64,000 nucleotides of DNA from Solirubrum puertoriconensis (GTDB taxonomy: Bacteria > Bacteroidota > Bacteroidia > Cytophagales > Hymenobacteraceae): the NCBI RefSeq assembly GCF_001483135.1, contig NZ_LNAL01000003.1:558001-622000 (forward strand), in the 5' to 3' direction. Below, piece after piece: positions 57,339-62,695 of the stretch; within the stretch, counting starts at the first letter, position 1; each line of letters opens with the position of its first letter. Below the pieces are notes generated by a model that was given only the letters and a program-made list of their open reading frames with translations, was not told the origin of the DNA and ran no database searches. The position numbers were made by a program, and so were the translations under genes.

Positions 57339-60300
57339 TTACTCTTCGCTGCCGAAACCAACCACGCGCAGCGTGCTTACGCCGCCGGCACCACGGCGCA
57401 CGTGTATTTGCGTGCTTACGCGTTCTTTCAGCGCCTCCACGTGCGAGATGACGCCAATCATTTTGCCGGTGCCTTGCAGCGTTTCGAGCGCCGAAAGCGC
57501 TACGTCGAGCGTGTCGGGGTCGAGGGTGCCAAAGCCTTCGTCAATGAAGAGCGTGTCGATCTGCGTCTTACGGCCGGCCAACTCCGACAGACCTAGGGCT
57601 AGCGCCAGGCTCACCAAAAAACTTTCACCACCCGATAGCGAGTTCATCGAGCGGGTGCTGCCGGCCTGGTACTCGTCTACAATGAGTAGGTCGAGGTGCT
57701 CGTGGGGGTTGCGCGTGATGCGGTACTGGTCGTTAAGGCGGGCCAGGTGGCGGTTGGCCAACTCTACGAGGCGGGCCAGCGTGAGGCCCTGCGCAAACTC
57801 GCTGAACTTCTTGCCATCGGCCGAGCCGATAAGCTCTGCCAAGCGGCGCCAGCGGCGAGCCTCCTGCAGTTGTTTATCCAGCTCGGCTACAATTTGAGCG
57901 TGGCGCTCCTGGCCGCTGCGGTGGTCGGCGAGGCGTTGTTGGCGCTGGCCCAGCTGCTGGTTGAGCGCAGCCAGCTGGTGCTCGGCTTCACGCAGCTGCA
58001 CCTGCACCACCTCCGACGACTCGGTGGTGAGGGCGCGAGCCTGCTCGGTTTGGTGCTGATGCGTAAGCTCCGTAATGCTGTGTTGCGCAGCCGCTACAGC
58101 CCGCTCGTGCGCTTGCAGTTGCTCGGCCAGGCGGTGCACTTCCTGCTCGGGTAACAAGCGGGCGGCCAGCTCGGCGCCATCGGCAGGTAGGCCGGCAGCT
58201 TGCAAATCGGCCAGCAAAGCGGCGTGGCGTTGGTCGCGCTGCTGCTGTTGCTGCGCAATCTCCTCGCCGAGCTGCTTGTGGCGTTCGTCGTGGCGAGCCA
58301 GTGCGGCTTCCTGCTCACAGAAAGCCTTGTCGTGGCGTTCGAAGGCTTCGGCGGCATGGCGCACGGCTTCGGCTAGCTGCGCTCGCGCTTGGGCCACATC
58401 GGTGCCGGCGAAGTGCTCTTGGCGTTGCGTACGCTGCTGCTCGATGCCCTTGAACTGCTGCACCAACACCTCTTTGCGCGCCGATAGCCACTGCTGATTA
58501 TCGGCGCGGCTCTTGGTGAGCTCCTCCACGCGAGCTTGCGCAGTACTGAGCTGCTTTTCTACGTTGGTGCGCGCCTGCTTTTTCTGCTCGAACTCGGCGC
58601 CCAGGCGCTTCAGCTGCTCAACCAGCGTAGCACCGTTTTCGCCCGTAAACTGCAGCCCAAACGAGCTCAGCAAGCTAGTGATGGTAGCGCGCACCACTGG
58701 CACCCGCTCCTCGGCATCAGCTAGGCGGGCCTGCAGCACAGCTAACTCCTGCGTAAGCTGTTGCTGCTGGGCGGCTGCTTGCTGCTGCAAGCCTTGGGCT
58801 TTGGTAAAAGCAACTTCGAGGTCATGCTGCTGCTGATCCAGCTCACGGAGCTGTTGGCCTATAGCGCGCACTGCCTTGGGAGCGGCTTCTTCGTCGGCTT
58901 CGGTAAGGAGCGTGAGCAGGGTAGGTGCCTCAGCCGCGGCGGCGTTGCCACCGGCGTGCTCGAGCAAGCCCGTGAGGCTTTGCATACGGTTGAGGCGTGC
59001 ATTCAAGGTACGCACCAGCTGGCCTAGCTCTTCCTCGCGTTGCTGGTCGCGCTTCAGCGAATCGTGGCTAATGCCCAGCACGCCCGCGGCGTAGGGGTGC
59101 TCGGTAGCGCCGCATAGCGGGCACGGCTCGCCAGCTACCAAGTGTTGGCGGGCTTCTTCGTGCGTCAGGATTAACTGGTGAGCTTGGGTAAGGCGGCGTA
59201 GGTCGTCCCAGCGTTGCTCTTGCTCGCGGTGTTCGCGCTGCAGGGCCGATACGTGGTGCAGCAGAAGGCGCAGCCACTCGTCGCGCTCGGTGGCGGCAGC
59301 TTGGTGCTGTTGGCGCACGGCGACAAGGCGCTGCTGTGTGGTTTCGGTTTCGCCTTGCCCGCGCTGAGCGGCCGTGGTGGCGGCTGCCAAACGGGTTTTC
59401 AGGTCAGCCTCGGCTTTGCGCAGCTCACCCAACTCGGCTTGCAGGCTGGTCCATACCTGCAATTCGCTGGTTAGGTCGGGCAAGGCTTCGGACAGCTCGG
59501 CCAGGCGCTGGTTTTGCTGCAGCCACTGATCCAGTTCGTGCAGCTGCTGACCTTGGGCTTGCACTTGCGCGGTGGTTTGCTCAAGCGTTGCGGCGGCCAG
59601 CTTGTGCTGCTCCAGGCGCTGATCGTACTCCAGCCGCTCTTTGCGGAGCTGCTCTTCGGCCTGCCCAATCAAGCCATCGAGCTTATCGGCCTCGAGCAGC
59701 TTGGGCTCCTGCTCTTGCTGGGCTTGCTGAGCTTGGGCGTGCTGCTGCTTAGCCGTAGCGCGCTGCTGGCGGGCGCTTTCGAGGGTGGTGTGAAGCAGCG
59801 GGCGGCGCAACGCCAACTGCTCCTGCTCGTGGCGCAGGCGCTGCAGTTGCGCATCGGTTTGCTGCACCAGGGCCCACGGCGTGCTGAAAGGTGCTGCCTG
59901 TTGGTGGGCCATGAGGCGCTGGTGCATGGGCTTGAGGCTAGCTGCCTGCGCCGTGAGCTGCTCCAGCGTGGCGGCCGCGCGTTGGCGGCGTAGCCCTAGG
60001 TCTTCGAGCTGCCGCAACCACAAATGAGCTTCGTTGAGGCGCTGGCGCATAGCGGTGGCCGTAGCGGCTTGTGCTTCGAGGGCGGCTACTTCGGCTGTTA
60101 GCGCGGTCAGTTCTTCCTCCGACAGCAGCGTTACCCCGGCAAGGCCCGCCCGCAGGGCTTCGCTGCGCTTGTCTTCTTCCTTGGCTTTCTCGAAGGCGAA
60201 GCGCGAAATCTCGGAGTACTTCTGTGTGTCGGTAATCTTTTCGAGCAGCTGGGCCCGTTCGCCGGGATTCGATTTCAGAAAGCGCGTAAACTCGCCTTGC

Positions 60301-60764
60301 GCCAGCAACACCGAACGCAAAAACTGGCGGTACTCCAGGCCGCTCAGCTCGGCTACCCGCGTCGGCACCCGCGACTTGTAGCTTTCCAGAATAACACCTT
60401 CGTCGGAGCCTTCTTTCAGCTCGCTGATGCTCATGGAGGCGTCCTGCAACTGCCCTTCGGCCTTTTTGCGGGCGCGGTGCTGGCCCCAGCGCGAGCGGTA
60501 CAGCTTGCCGTTTACGCTAAACTCCACTTCGGCCCAGCTTTCGCCGGTGCCTTGGCTCATCACTTGGGCTACCTCGCCGTCGTGGCGGGGTACTTGGCCG
60601 TAGAGCGCCAGCGTAATGGCATCGAGAATAGTGGTTTTGCCCGCGCCGGTAGGGCCCGTAATGGCAAACAAGCCCGCATCGGAAAGCGGGGCGTTGCTGA
60701 AATCAATCTCGTGCTGCCCGCGCAGCGAGTTGAGGTTGAAGAACCGGACGCGGAGAATTCTCAT
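57339..60764 (-). CDS. sbcC: Nuclease SbcCD, ATPase subunit SbcC
   Basis: 1141 residues from the ATG at 60764. Walker A GPTGAGKTT at 37-45; a long coiled coil, rich in Gln, Glu and Ala, on each side of the zinc hook CPLC (about 549-552); signature LSGGESFLVSLALA (about 1040) and Walker B LFIDEGFGTLD (about 1073). With SbcD it is a Mre11-Rad50-type complex that cuts hairpins and DNA ends. The start at 60764 removes a few codons that would lie in the inserted repeat. The gene is separated from sbcD by the DUF559 cassette. Confidence 0.95.
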   Translation of the reverse strand: MRILRVRFFNLNSLRGQHEIDFSNAPLSDAGLFAITGPTGAGKTTILDAITLALYGQVPRHDGEVAQVMSQGTGESWAEVEFSVNGKLYRSRWGQHRARKKAEGQLQDASMSISELKEGSDEGVILESYKSRVPTRVAELSGLEYRQFLRSVLLAQGEFTRFLKSNPGERAQLLEKITDTQKYSEISRFAFEKAKEEDKRSEALRAGLAGVTLLSEEELTALTAEVAALEAQAATATAMRQRLNEAHLWLRQLEDLGLRRQRAAATLEQLTAQAASLKPMHQRLMAHQQAAPFSTPWALVQQTDAQLQRLRHEQEQLALRRPLLHTTLESARQQRATAKQQHAQAQQAQQEQEPKLLEADKLDGLIGQAEEQLRKERLEYDQRLEQHKLAAATLEQTTAQVQAQGQQLHELDQWLQQNQRLAELSEALPDLTSELQVWTSLQAELGELRKAEADLKTRLAAATTAAQRGQGETETTQQRLVAVRQQHQAAATERDEWLRLLLHHVSALQREHREQEQRWDDLRRLTQAHQLILTHEEARQHLVAGEPCPLCGATEHPYAAGVLGISHDSLKRDQQREEELGQLVRTLNARLNRMQSLTGLLEHAGGNAAAAEAPTLLTLLTEADEEAAPKAVRAIGQQLRELDQQQHDLEVAFTKAQGLQQQAAAQQQQLTQELAVLQARLADAEERVPVVRATITSLLSSFGLQFTGENGATLVEQLKRLGAEFEQKKQARTNVEKQLSTAQARVEELTKSRADNQQWLSARKEVLVQQFKGIEQQRTQRQEHFAGTDVAQARAQLAEAVRHAAEAFERHDKAFCEQEAALARHDERHKQLGEEIAQQQQQRDQRHAALLADLQAAGLPADGAELAARLLPEQEVHRLAEQLQAHERAVAAAQHSITELTHQHQTEQARALTTESSEVVQVQLREAEHQLAALNQQLGQRQQRLADHRSGQERHAQIVAELDKQLQEARRWRRLAELIGSADGKKFSEFAQGLTLARLVELANRHLARLNDQYRITRNPHEHLDLLIVDEYQAGSTRSMNSLSGGESFLVSLALALGLSELAGRKTQIDTLFIDEGFGTLDPDTLDVALSALETLQGTGKMIGVISHVEALKERVSTQIHVRRGAGGVSTLRVVGFGSEE

Positions 60765-60766
60765 AT

Positions 60767-60817
60767 GGGGCCTCACCCCCCGGCCCCCTCTCCGAGGGGA
60801 GAGGGGGAACCTGACGA
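60767..60817. repeat. Left terminal inverted repeat of the DUF559 cassette
   Basis: 51 bp, starting GGGGCCTCACCCCCCGG and ending CCTGACGA. It holds its own hairpin, so it could also terminate or process the sbcD-DUF559-sbcC transcript. Confidence 0.8.
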
Positions 60818-60883
60818 GGGCACGTATTCAGGGTAAAGAAGATAAGTGTGGCTGTCGTATCGCGCAGCCATTTACTAAGCAAG

Positions 60884-61309
60884 TTAAGGCAGGTGCTGGC
60901 GAATTCGTGCCAGTACAGATGCGGTTTGATGCAAGACTTCTTCGTTGGCAAAACGCAGAACGGTGTAGCCAAGTGTTGCTAGATCGAAAGTGCGGCCTTC
61001 ATCATAAGCGGTTTGCTCAGGCTCAGAATGATAACATCTATCTACCTCGATAATAAGCTTAGCCGGCAAGCAGATGAAATCGGCAATGTAGCGGTCAATT
61101 ACATGCTGCCGTCTGAAGCGAAGACCAGTTTGGTTACCTCTCAGGTGCTGCCACAATACCTCCTCTGCCAAAGTAGGTTGCCGGCGCATTTGCCTAGCTG
61201 ATGCACTGATTAACTCATAAAGTACCTTGTCAGCAGTAGCCCATTTCAACTTCGTTGAAGTCGGGACACCACTCGTATTATTTGAAATATCAGCTATACA
61301 TCCATTCAT
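60884..61309 (-). CDS. DUF559 endonuclease-like protein
   Basis: 141 residues from an ATG 16 bp inside the right repeat; an internal Met41 is an alternative start. The core is classic DUF559, a Vsr-like PD-(D/E)xK fold: LWQHLRGNQ (about 52-60), FRRQHVIDRYIADF (Asp77) and LIIEVD (Glu88, Asp90), then YHSEPEQTAYDEGRTFDL and LGYTVLRF. These acidic residues fit a metal-dependent nuclease site. Members are common, of unknown role. There is little room for a promoter, so it probably depends on sbcD readthrough. Confidence 0.82.
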   Translation of the reverse strand: MNGCIADISNNTSGVPTSTKLKWATADKVLYELISASARQMRRQPTLAEEVLWQHLRGNQTGLRFRRQHVIDRYIADFICLPAKLIIEVDRCYHSEPEQTAYDEGRTFDLATLGYTVLRFANEEVLHQTASVLARIRQHLP

Positions 61310-61324
61310 CTTACGCTAATCAAT

Positions 61325-61374
61325 TCGTCAGGCTCCCCCTCTCCCTTGGAGAGGGGGCCGGGGGGTGAGGCCCC
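61325..61374. repeat. Right terminal inverted repeat of the DUF559 cassette
   Basis: 50 bp, starting TCGTCAGG and ending GGTGAGGCCCC. Its last base is the first base (61374) of the reverse-complemented sbcD stop triplet. Confidence 0.8.
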
Positions 61375-62603
61375 TAGTTGTGCATCAGCTCCACCAACTC
61401 ATCGAACGTGCGCATCAACTCCGCGCGGCCGTCTTCCGGCTCGCCTTCTAAGCGGCGCTCAAAAACTTCCCGCTCCGAAAAATCGTGCAGGCTGCGGGTG
61501 AGCGGTTCGGCTTCGGTTTCGCCGAGCGGCCGGAGCGTTACGATGCGGAAATGCCGCCGTGCCAGCACCTCAATCTGCTTGCGGTCGAGCTTCTCGATAA
61601 CCTTGAGCAACTGCTCGGCTACTTCGAGCTGGCCGATTTCAGAGCGGATTTCAACATCGGCCCAGGCCGGGAGGGGTAGCTCGCCGTTTTCGTAGGCGGC
61701 AAGCTGGTTTAATACTTCCTCTAGGTCGCCGTGGAAGCGCACGAGGCGGCGGGCGGTAGGCACCTCAATGGTTTCGATGCTGGGGCAGCCTGCGCCCTTA
61801 AACTCGAGCAGCAGTACTTGCTTGGGGTCGTGGATTTCGGAAAACGACAGCGGAATGGGAGAACCGCTGTAGCGGATATGCTCGCGGCCGCCTACGCGCT
61901 GCGGGCGGTGCAAGTGACCTAGGGCCACGTAGTCGAAACAATCGGGGAAGTGGTCGGCCGAGACTTGCCCTAGGTTGCCCACGTGAATGGTGCGCTCCGA
62001 GTCGGAGGCAGCACCGCCGGCGGCGTAGAGGTGGCCGGTTGCCAGCACCGGCAAGCCATTGGCTTTGTGCTGCCACACTTGCTCGCACTCGGCTACGCGG
62101 GCGTAGTGGTCGGCAATGCCTTGTTTGATGCGGGCCTCGCGCTCTTCGGCGGTTTCGCCAGGCAGGGAGAGGCGCACGTCACGGTCGCGCAGGAAGGGTA
62201 CGGCGCACACCACCAGCGCGGGTTGGCCGGTGGCATCGTCGAGTATCAGCACCTGGTCGTCGAAGCAATCGGGCACGCAGCCCACCACGTGCACGCGCAA
62301 GTGGCGTAGCAGGCGGGCCGGGGCGTTGAGCGTAGCCGGCGAGTCGTGGTTGCCGCCTACAATTACCACGTCGCGGCAGTTGGTTTGGCGCAGCTGCACC
62401 AAAAAGGAGTAGTACAGCTCGAGCGCGGCGCTTGAGGGCGAGCCGGTGTCGAATACGTCGCCGGCTAGTACCAGCACTTCTACCTGCCGCTCCTGCACAG
62501 TGCACACCAGCCACTCCAGAAAATGGCGGTGCTCCTCGGTGCGCTCGTGGCCGCTGATAAAGCGTTGGCCCAGGTGCCAATCGGCGGTGTGCAGGACTCT
62601 CAT
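61374..62603 (-). CDS. sbcD: Nuclease SbcCD, nuclease subunit SbcD
   Basis: 409 residues from the ATG at 62603 (MRVLHTADWHLGQ). Mre11-type calcineurin-like phosphoesterase motifs: Asp8 and His10 in DWH, GDVFD near 51, GNHDS near 86, then ATGHLY and the ALGHLHRPQ motif. These bind two Mn ions. It cuts DNA ends and hairpins together with SbcC. Its TAG stop codon abuts the right terminal repeat of the cassette. A TATTTTTG box lies 27 bp upstream of the ATG. Confidence 0.95.
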   Translation of the reverse strand: MRVLHTADWHLGQRFISGHERTEEHRHFLEWLVCTVQERQVEVLVLAGDVFDTGSPSSAALELYYSFLVQLRQTNCRDVVIVGGNHDSPATLNAPARLLRHLRVHVVGCVPDCFDDQVLILDDATGQPALVVCAVPFLRDRDVRLSLPGETAEEREARIKQGIADHYARVAECEQVWQHKANGLPVLATGHLYAAGGAASDSERTIHVGNLGQVSADHFPDCFDYVALGHLHRPQRVGGREHIRYSGSPIPLSFSEIHDPKQVLLLEFKGAGCPSIETIEVPTARRLVRFHGDLEEVLNQLAAYENGELPLPAWADVEIRSEIGQLEVAEQLLKVIEKLDRKQIEVLARRHFRIVTLRPLGETEAEPLTRSLHDFSEREVFERRLEGEPEDGRAELMRTFDELVELMHN

Positions 62604-62630
62604 GCAGGTGGTGGAAGAAGTAATGAACAC

Positions 62631-62638
62631 CAAAAATA
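62631..62638 (-). promoter_or_regulatory. -7 box of sbcD
   Basis: TATTTTTG on the minus strand, 27 bp before the ATG at 62603; the upstream TTTG is 26 bp away, longer than usual. Confidence 0.4.
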
Positions 62639-62695
62639 ACGCTTCGGGTGCCGAAATTGCTCCGCAAATTGTCGGCGTAAACAACGATTAGCTAG

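Follow-up and report, generated by a model that had tools for sequence, protein, structure and literature searches.

We propose that the cassette lying between sbcD and sbcC of Solirubrum puertoriconensis belongs to a kind of mobile DNA in which a DUF559 nuclease gene and the two inverted hairpin-plus-tag repeats that bound it form a single unit. In the reading that we regard as probable, the nuclease cuts at its own folded repeat class, and the copy found in the 64-kb stretch of DNA analysed here (the window) is an older resident of this kind. The arrangement suggests an undescribed nuclease-plus-hairpin unit that may explain a long-orphaned repeat family. According to the proposed mechanism, the DUF559 nuclease would recognise repeats of its own class by their folded end, probably a hairpin with its G-rich tag laid back as a third strand, and would cut DNA, after which the unit, or a bare gene-free repeat pair, would be copied elsewhere by repair or strand transfer. 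We infer the cleavage, the recognition of folded ends, the copying step and the movement of the repeats. Insertions would survive where they are harmless, either in stop-to-start gaps or, in frame, in protein loops, where the repeats would be read as proline/glycine/glutamate-rich linkers.

The cassette (60767-61374, 608 bp) is located between two genes transcribed from the minus strand (Table 1). The original prediction described inverted hairpin repeats of about 50 bp with perfectly complementary outer 27 bp, and a DUF559 nuclease as the only gene between them. Arm comparison and sequence reading confirmed both statements: the arms are inverted, approximately 51 bp long, perfect over the outer 27 bp and 97% complementary over the outer 32 nt, and the sole gene matched PF04480 with an E-value of 1.3e-33 (115.6 bits against a curated cut-off of 20.6), DUF559 and MTES_1575 being the only Pfam families found on it. 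Each arm is a C-rich/G-rich hairpin with a 10-bp stem and a G-rich tag on its outer side. As predicted, 2 bp separate one arm from the sbcC ATG, and the reading frames of sbcD and sbcC are both intact. The cassette was also said to start directly after the sbcD stop codon; it does adjoin this codon, with the correction that the last G of the TAG is the outermost base of the arm, a one-base overlap. The hairpin pattern and a 25-nt cassette end each have two matches in the window, both at the cassette ends, and none in 100 shuffles. As single DNA strands, the ends have predicted folding energies of -15.6 and -15.3 kcal/mol, which only modestly exceed those of shuffles (z -1.43 and -1.58, with 18/200 and 12/200 shuffles equally stable); since folding energy is unconvincing alone, our case is built on symmetry, copies and relatives.

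Table 1. Positions in the window of the cassette features and of the two adjacent genes.
Feature	Position	Strand	Basis
sbcC, ATG 60762-60764; intact	57339..60764	-	
Left inverted-repeat end: outer tag, spacer, hairpin, inner TGACGA	60767..60817		Sequence reading, arm comparison, folding
G-rich tag GGGGGTGAGG, which may join the stem as third strand in a purine-motif triplex	60771..60780	-	Reading; motif class in PMC4666352
Left-end hairpin: stem 60784-60793/60798-60807, loop GAGG	60784..60807		Reading; none in shuffles
DUF559 nuclease gene, 141 aa, predicted Vsr/homing-endonuclease-like fold	60884..61309	-	ORF, Pfam, model, profile search
Right inverted-repeat end	61325..61374		Reading, arm comparison, folding
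Right-end hairpin: stem 61335-61344/61348-61357, loop CTT	61335..61357		Reading; none in shuffles
G-rich tag GGGGGTGAGG; set against the stem arm GGAGAGGGGG read in reverse, 10/10 positions match the G.GC, T/A.AT code (by eye)	61361..61370	+	
sbcD, listed ORF (an inner ATG is probably the true start); intact, with its stop codon at 61374-61376	61374..62684	-	

In the S. puertoriconensis genome (4.80 Mb in 8 contigs), the repeat is not common everywhere without a link to DUF559: there are four exact class-A palindromes, two of which are the cassette ends. The third is part of a bare inverted pair located between a stop codon and an ATG, and the fourth is located just ahead of an ATG. The genome has two DUF559 genes. 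The repeats that adjoin the second one are of a different class (CCCCTCCTCA..TGAGGAGGGG, tag TTAGGGGTGGTTGA) and are also present as a nearby pair. S. puertoriconensis therefore combines two nuclease lineages, and the repeat differs between them. All 33 of 33 100-mers sampled from two same-genus genomes recur in loci of Hymenobacter busanensis and Hymenobacter sp. 15J16-1T3B, which places the window among these relatives.

A search of S. puertoriconensis and its relatives (58 genomes) identified 120 PF04480 matches in 43 genomes, and 91 of these loci were examined, 60 of them mostly from the upper part of the match list. Strong repeats, defined as inverted repeats scoring at least 40 on both sides of DUF559, were found in 71 of the 91 loci, but in none of 180 windows from other parts of these loci and in none of 273 shuffles. 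Mixed flank pairs taken from different DUF559 loci passed the score in 36 of 446 cases, as expected when loci share a repeat class. The 20 loci without a strong both-sided repeat count against the mobile-unit reading. In named genomes, represented by the best 80 loci among the matches listed of one scan (69 of them long enough), 33 of 69 loci had a both-sided repeat, compared with 3 of 289 controls; the other 36 again count against a mobile unit. The passing loci include Bacteroidota, Chloroflexota, one alphaproteobacterium and one candidate Uhrbacteria genome. Both comparisons support, from sequence, the proposed DUF559-repeat unit as real and general. Ten plasmid records were also examined out of 40 with a DUF559 match. 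The loci of Sinorhizobium, Sphingobium, Sphingomonas, Deinococcus and Pseudanabaena passed, and those of Photobacterium, Azospirillum, Picosynechococcus, Synechocystis and E. coli failed the both-sided score; by eye, the five failing loci have C/G-rich hairpins close by on one or both sides. On a Sphingomonas parapaucimobilis plasmid (L285), the DUF559 gene and its matching inverted repeats are located between sufB and sufC.

Repeat class follows the DUF559 lineage, as judged from sequence comparison, also among the paralogues of one genome. For 68 loci with both-sided repeats, end similarity tracked DUF559 similarity (rho 0.51, 0/1000 permutations). The outer flanks correlated with DUF559 similarity too when all pairs were considered (rho 0.21, 0/1000), so genome relatedness contributes to this result, and only the within-genome comparison removes it. 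Within genomes (79 pairs), end and DUF559 similarity gave a rho of 0.61 (0/1000), and the outer flanks a rho of 0.21 (397/1000). Additionally, in 45 of 51 cases the ends were closer to those of the nearest DUF559 of another genome than to those of the nearest of the same genome. Co-occurrence was assessed in 345 genomes of the class, using a DUF559 threshold of E<=1e-15: 74 had both, 20 the class-A repeat only, 66 DUF559 only and 185 neither, with an odds ratio of 10.4 that ignores phylogeny. The 20 of 94 class-A-pattern genomes without DUF559 at this threshold, and the 66 of 140 DUF559 genomes without the pattern, count against the link. The strict class-A pattern scores 0 in S. puertoriconensis because of the longer C5/G5 arms there; it misses these copies, and repeats are therefore undercounted in the co-occurrence table.

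Filled and empty sites were found among close relatives. The sbcD-sbcC cassette is not conserved at this place in all of them: it is present in three of eight same-genus genomes (G000, G006 and G001, S. puertoriconensis included) and missing from five. The three sbcDC DUF559 copies form one clade (100/95) with alignable flanks, which indicates either an old insertion that was later lost from some genomes or its transmission by recombination. The copy thus does not look fresh, and a recent insertion at this junction was rejected. A special tie of the site to the hairpin-cutting SbcCD, as originally suggested, did not hold, as cassettes also occur at other junctions and inside other genes. In G004, the sbcD-sbcC junction (L063) is occupied by a different small ORF of approximately 98 aa (by eye), which suggests that small genes of unrelated kinds may insert there.

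In G008, a cassette is located between two genes that in the same-genus G013 are joined without it. The flanks are 87% and 83% identical, and no more than 9 A-rich bases remain at the site; G013 carries a cassette of the G008 type (82%) elsewhere, with unrelated flanks. The content of one stop/ATG junction differs between genomes: G000, G001 and G002 have a class-A pair there, G007 has instead a pair of class B, and the inverted repeat of G004 is unrelated to either. In G003, the junction has about 95 nt of unread content, and no match to the flanks was obtained in G005 or G006. Between the close species G006 and G000, a class-B DUF559 cassette (L076 vs L001) is flipped relative to its flanks. 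Among eight congeners, the cassette site of a UvrD-like helicase gene is filled in G006 and G004 and empty in G000, G001, G002, G003, G005 and G007, the empty state of G003 being based on alignment coordinates. Relative to G000, the filled helicase gene is 546 nt (182 codons) longer, since 593 nt replace a 47-nt linker; this swap of a linker, rather than a clean split, counts against the mobile-unit reading. The empty sites that the original prediction called for are thus present in relatives. Target duplication, which it had also named, was rejected as a signature, with none clear at the G008/G013, stop/ATG junction and helicase sites. The near-identical DUF559 genes of G001, G002, G003 and G007 were considered as a recent transfer to new places and rejected, since the whole 3.3 kb aligns at approximately 91% and the sites are therefore orthologous. 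With several compared cassettes at orthologous places, our sample has few clear recent jumps.

For many DUF559 matches, the open frame is long because the cassette and its repeats are read through as a segment of a host protein. Of 180 loci labelled with host motifs, 32 were within or at the end of named hosts, 16 in other frames of more than 400 aa and 132 in neither. The named hosts were LeuS (12, at two sites), the PurQ end (6), IleS (4), a UvrD-like helicase (3), MetH (2), RecG (2), UvrA (1), MutS (1) and PriA (1); these counts are a minimum, as only the best DUF559 domain per locus was labelled. Two loci (L221 and L253) have one LeuS-type frame with two DUF559 domains, as if two insertion sites in a single gene were filled. 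A Pfam scan of 20 fused frames identified host domains both before and after DUF559 in 16, and L218 is probably a 17th. A strong both-sided repeat is present in nine of the 16 (L025, L035, L205, L208, L214, L216, L219, L235 and L259) and absent from seven (L013, L236, L246, L247, L250, L251 and L275), several of the latter with repeat-like linker peptides by eye; long frames with DUF559 and no strong repeat include L250, L237 and L252. The translated repeats form linkers such as PPGPLSRGEGEP and SPSPRERGPGGEA. One LeuS gene has, in frame, a bare repeat pair without a nuclease, with a 16-bp perfect inverted match. Palindromic repeats placed in frame within protein genes, like the DUF559 cassettes, are also a property of the Rickettsia palindromic elements, for which we know of no nuclease gene. 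If the reading of a mobile unit is correct, the linkers that the element itself encodes would allow it to enter essential genes with no need for splicing.

The best surviving alternative, which we nevertheless consider unlikely, is a homing-type element, in which DUF559 cuts the empty allele at one site, repair proceeds from the filled allele, and the repeats are by-products or end-holders. It is supported by structure. The model of the window DUF559 protein (mean pLDDT 86) found a Neisseria DUF559 structure as its best match (E 4.5e-8), and the closest solved structure outside DUF559 was the mobile-intron endonuclease I-Bth0305I (E 8.5e-5), in agreement with the profile search; the predicted fold thus resembles that of a homing endonuclease. 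The I-Bth0305I matches also speak for the mobile-unit reading. The cassettes also share with homing endonucleases and inteins the in-frame location in conserved essential genes and the patchy distribution with empty alleles, and the same protein sites are filled across different genera in the UvrD-like helicase, LeuS, IleS, MetH and RecG. At two Microcystis loci (L252 and L260), DUF559 appears at what we take, from motifs, to be the endonuclease position of an intein in a DNA methylase. Repeat-like peptides were observed in the N-terminal part of these two loci. Apart from this possible exception, no splicing domain or intron was found: Pfam gave no splicing domain for the window gene or the 20 fused frames at the cut-offs used, nor for L252 at 1e-6. 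The nearest relative is at a different site for 12 of the 30 labelled rows (both of those for MetH and two of the four for IleS among them), so that repeated entry into the same tolerant loops is probable; overall, however, identity is higher between same-site copies (0.60 vs 0.51, 0/2000 shuffles). Unlike homing endonucleases, the DUF559 unit has repeats at its ends, and gene-free copies of these are scattered over many sites.

Residues E49, D77, H94 and D103, which we take to be the EDxHD catalytic set, are invariant in 29 of 29 aligned DUF559 proteins, the window protein included. In the same alignment, the window protein has R at the nearly invariant G91. The sbcDC copies are altered at such positions, with G91R in the window (60884-61309) and E88G in G001 (L081), perhaps a sign of fading function. 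The dN/dS values were between 0.04 and 0.25 in 17 of 22 DUF559 pairs (finite values only; several pairs with dS >1), with the sbcDC pair G000-G006 the highest (0.25), a codon-level indication that the nuclease is under purifying selection.

A second alternative, which seems improbable to us, is that DUF559 is a Vsr-like mismatch/repair nuclease with a housekeeping or repair role, the repeats gathering around it for other reasons, e.g., as terminators. Vsr was a weak fold match to the model (E 0.08-0.09), and Caulobacter VsrA, a protein with a DUF559 domain, is required for SOS induction without the cytosine methyltransferase ScmA, for which its authors proposed very-short-patch repair (PMC12907096, accessible text). 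This requirement is the best in vivo hint of DNA damage by DUF559 proteins; the accessible text of that paper leaves the repeats unmentioned (0 occurrences of 'palindrom'). A repair role leaves unexplained the matching inverted ends, the within-genome matching of lineage and repeat, and the in-frame insertions in LeuS, MutS and other proteins, where a terminator would be harmful.

In the third alternative, to which we give a very low probability, a RAYT or some other enzyme moves the repeats and DUF559 is their cargo. Y1-type transposase genes are indeed frequent, with 146 matches in 46 of the 58 genomes. Of these loci, 50 were examined, and C-rich hairpins were found within 400 bp of none of them, compared with 70 of 91 DUF559 loci; as the hairpin patterns were written from DUF559 ends, these values express a separation rather than an unbiased rate. 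Where inverted repeats were found flanking Y1/RAYT loci, they belong to other kinds. Several RAYT-like genes (L157-L176) have repeats of their own, e.g., GTAGCGCGGACTTT..AGTCCGCG or CTGGCGCGAGC..GCTCGTG. Additionally, G002 and G007 have 14 and 30 class-A palindromes, respectively, together with DUF559 and no Y1 match. On the loci examined, RAYT was rejected as the mover of the C-rich repeats.

We read the DUF559-driven unit and its dispersed solo and paired repeats as a RAYT-like layout with an unrelated enzyme. Like the REP/REPIN and RAYT system (TnpA-REP, 'REPtron'), it consists of a single gene between inverted hairpin-plus-tag repeats, and one genome can have several repeat families, each paired with a separate enzyme lineage. 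RAYTs pair likewise with REPs in repeat-specific REPtrons (PMC3733652, as far as its accessible text goes), and RAYT-REP co-evolution has been described (PMC8266576, likewise). The REPtron has a HuH tyrosine transposase and GTAG/CGTC tags, whereas the DUF559 unit has a Vsr/homing-endonuclease-like nuclease, a C/G-rich stem and the triplex-type tag GGGGGTGAGG, and in-frame insertion in essential genes also sets the DUF559 unit apart from the REPtron. The RAYT-like role originally suggested for DUF559 stands insofar as the unit is real, general and lineage-matched; that DUF559 actively moves the repeats is what we infer. If true, RAYTs would be joined by a second, unrelated type of enzyme that mobilises REPs.

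An anti-phage defence nuclease with recombinogenic repeats as its bounds is scarcely credible, as the named hosts are mostly housekeeping genes and its support consists of weak PADLOC matches (E 1e-4 to 9e-3), a BREX gene adjoining one copy and the restriction-type hosts L218 and L250.

The architecture of the cassette ends relates the mobile unit to known repeats. Read 5′-3′, the ends consist of a pyrimidine stem, a loop, a purine stem, a 3-nt spacer and a G-rich tag, and at both ends the tag mirrors the purine stem by the purine-motif triplex code at 10/10 positions (by eye). In the accessible text of Holder 2015 (PMC4666352), the BoxC/PIT/TM repeats of E. coli and other bacteria have the same pyrimidine stem, purine stem and G-rich third arm, with some inverted pairs; they form intrastrand triplexes in vitro, triplex formation by the E. 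coli triplex motif being reported by CD/NMR, and they mark unstable loci by a mechanism stated as unclear. The window ends fit this architecture with C5/G5 stems. The exact TM-ECO consensus of PMC4666352 has no match in the window on either strand; the ends thus share the architecture and belong, by their sequence, to a sister subtype of the BoxC/PIT/"triplex motif" class. In a selected test of the triplex code on DUF559-linked repeats that kept G-rich tails only (36 units, 18 distinct stems), stems matched their own tag somewhat better than swapped ones (0.81 vs 0.74, 0/2000), the observed 0.8125 being barely above the largest swapped mean (0.8115). The unselected test, on 337 units, was weaker: 0.617 for a stem with its own tag against 0.572 for swapped ones, whose largest mean was 0.597.

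The BoxC/PIT/TM repeats differ from the DUF559 unit in being described without a dedicated enzyme in the accessible part of PMC4666352, in whose main text 'DUF559', 'endonuclease' and 'ycjD' have 0 occurrences. A literature search, with many subscription papers and preprints outside its reach, found no published link between DUF559 and these repeats. We lean slightly towards the broader proposal that DUF559 proteins are dedicated mobilisers of BoxC/triplex-motif and sister repeats across bacteria. The ends would be recognised as intrastrand triplexes, and the mobile DNA would spread as cassettes and bare pairs and could enter essential genes in frame through linker ends. In E. coli, BoxC would then have ycjD as its partner, whether still active or retired. 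If true, a dedicated nuclease would explain the spread of BoxC/triplex repeats and DUF559 would gain a role; the idea is testable in E. coli K-12 with ycjD. The ycjD gene is a DUF559 gene located between sapF and fabI (L277 and L288). A simple empty/filled ycjD site was rejected, as two ycjD-free E. coli strains (L287 and L289) have other genes there. Using a 1.7-kb query of the ycjD locus, at least 80% of its length was present in 3363 of 5426 E. coli genomes, and a full TM-ECO consensus match is located approximately 170 bp downstream of ycjD, strain K-12 included.
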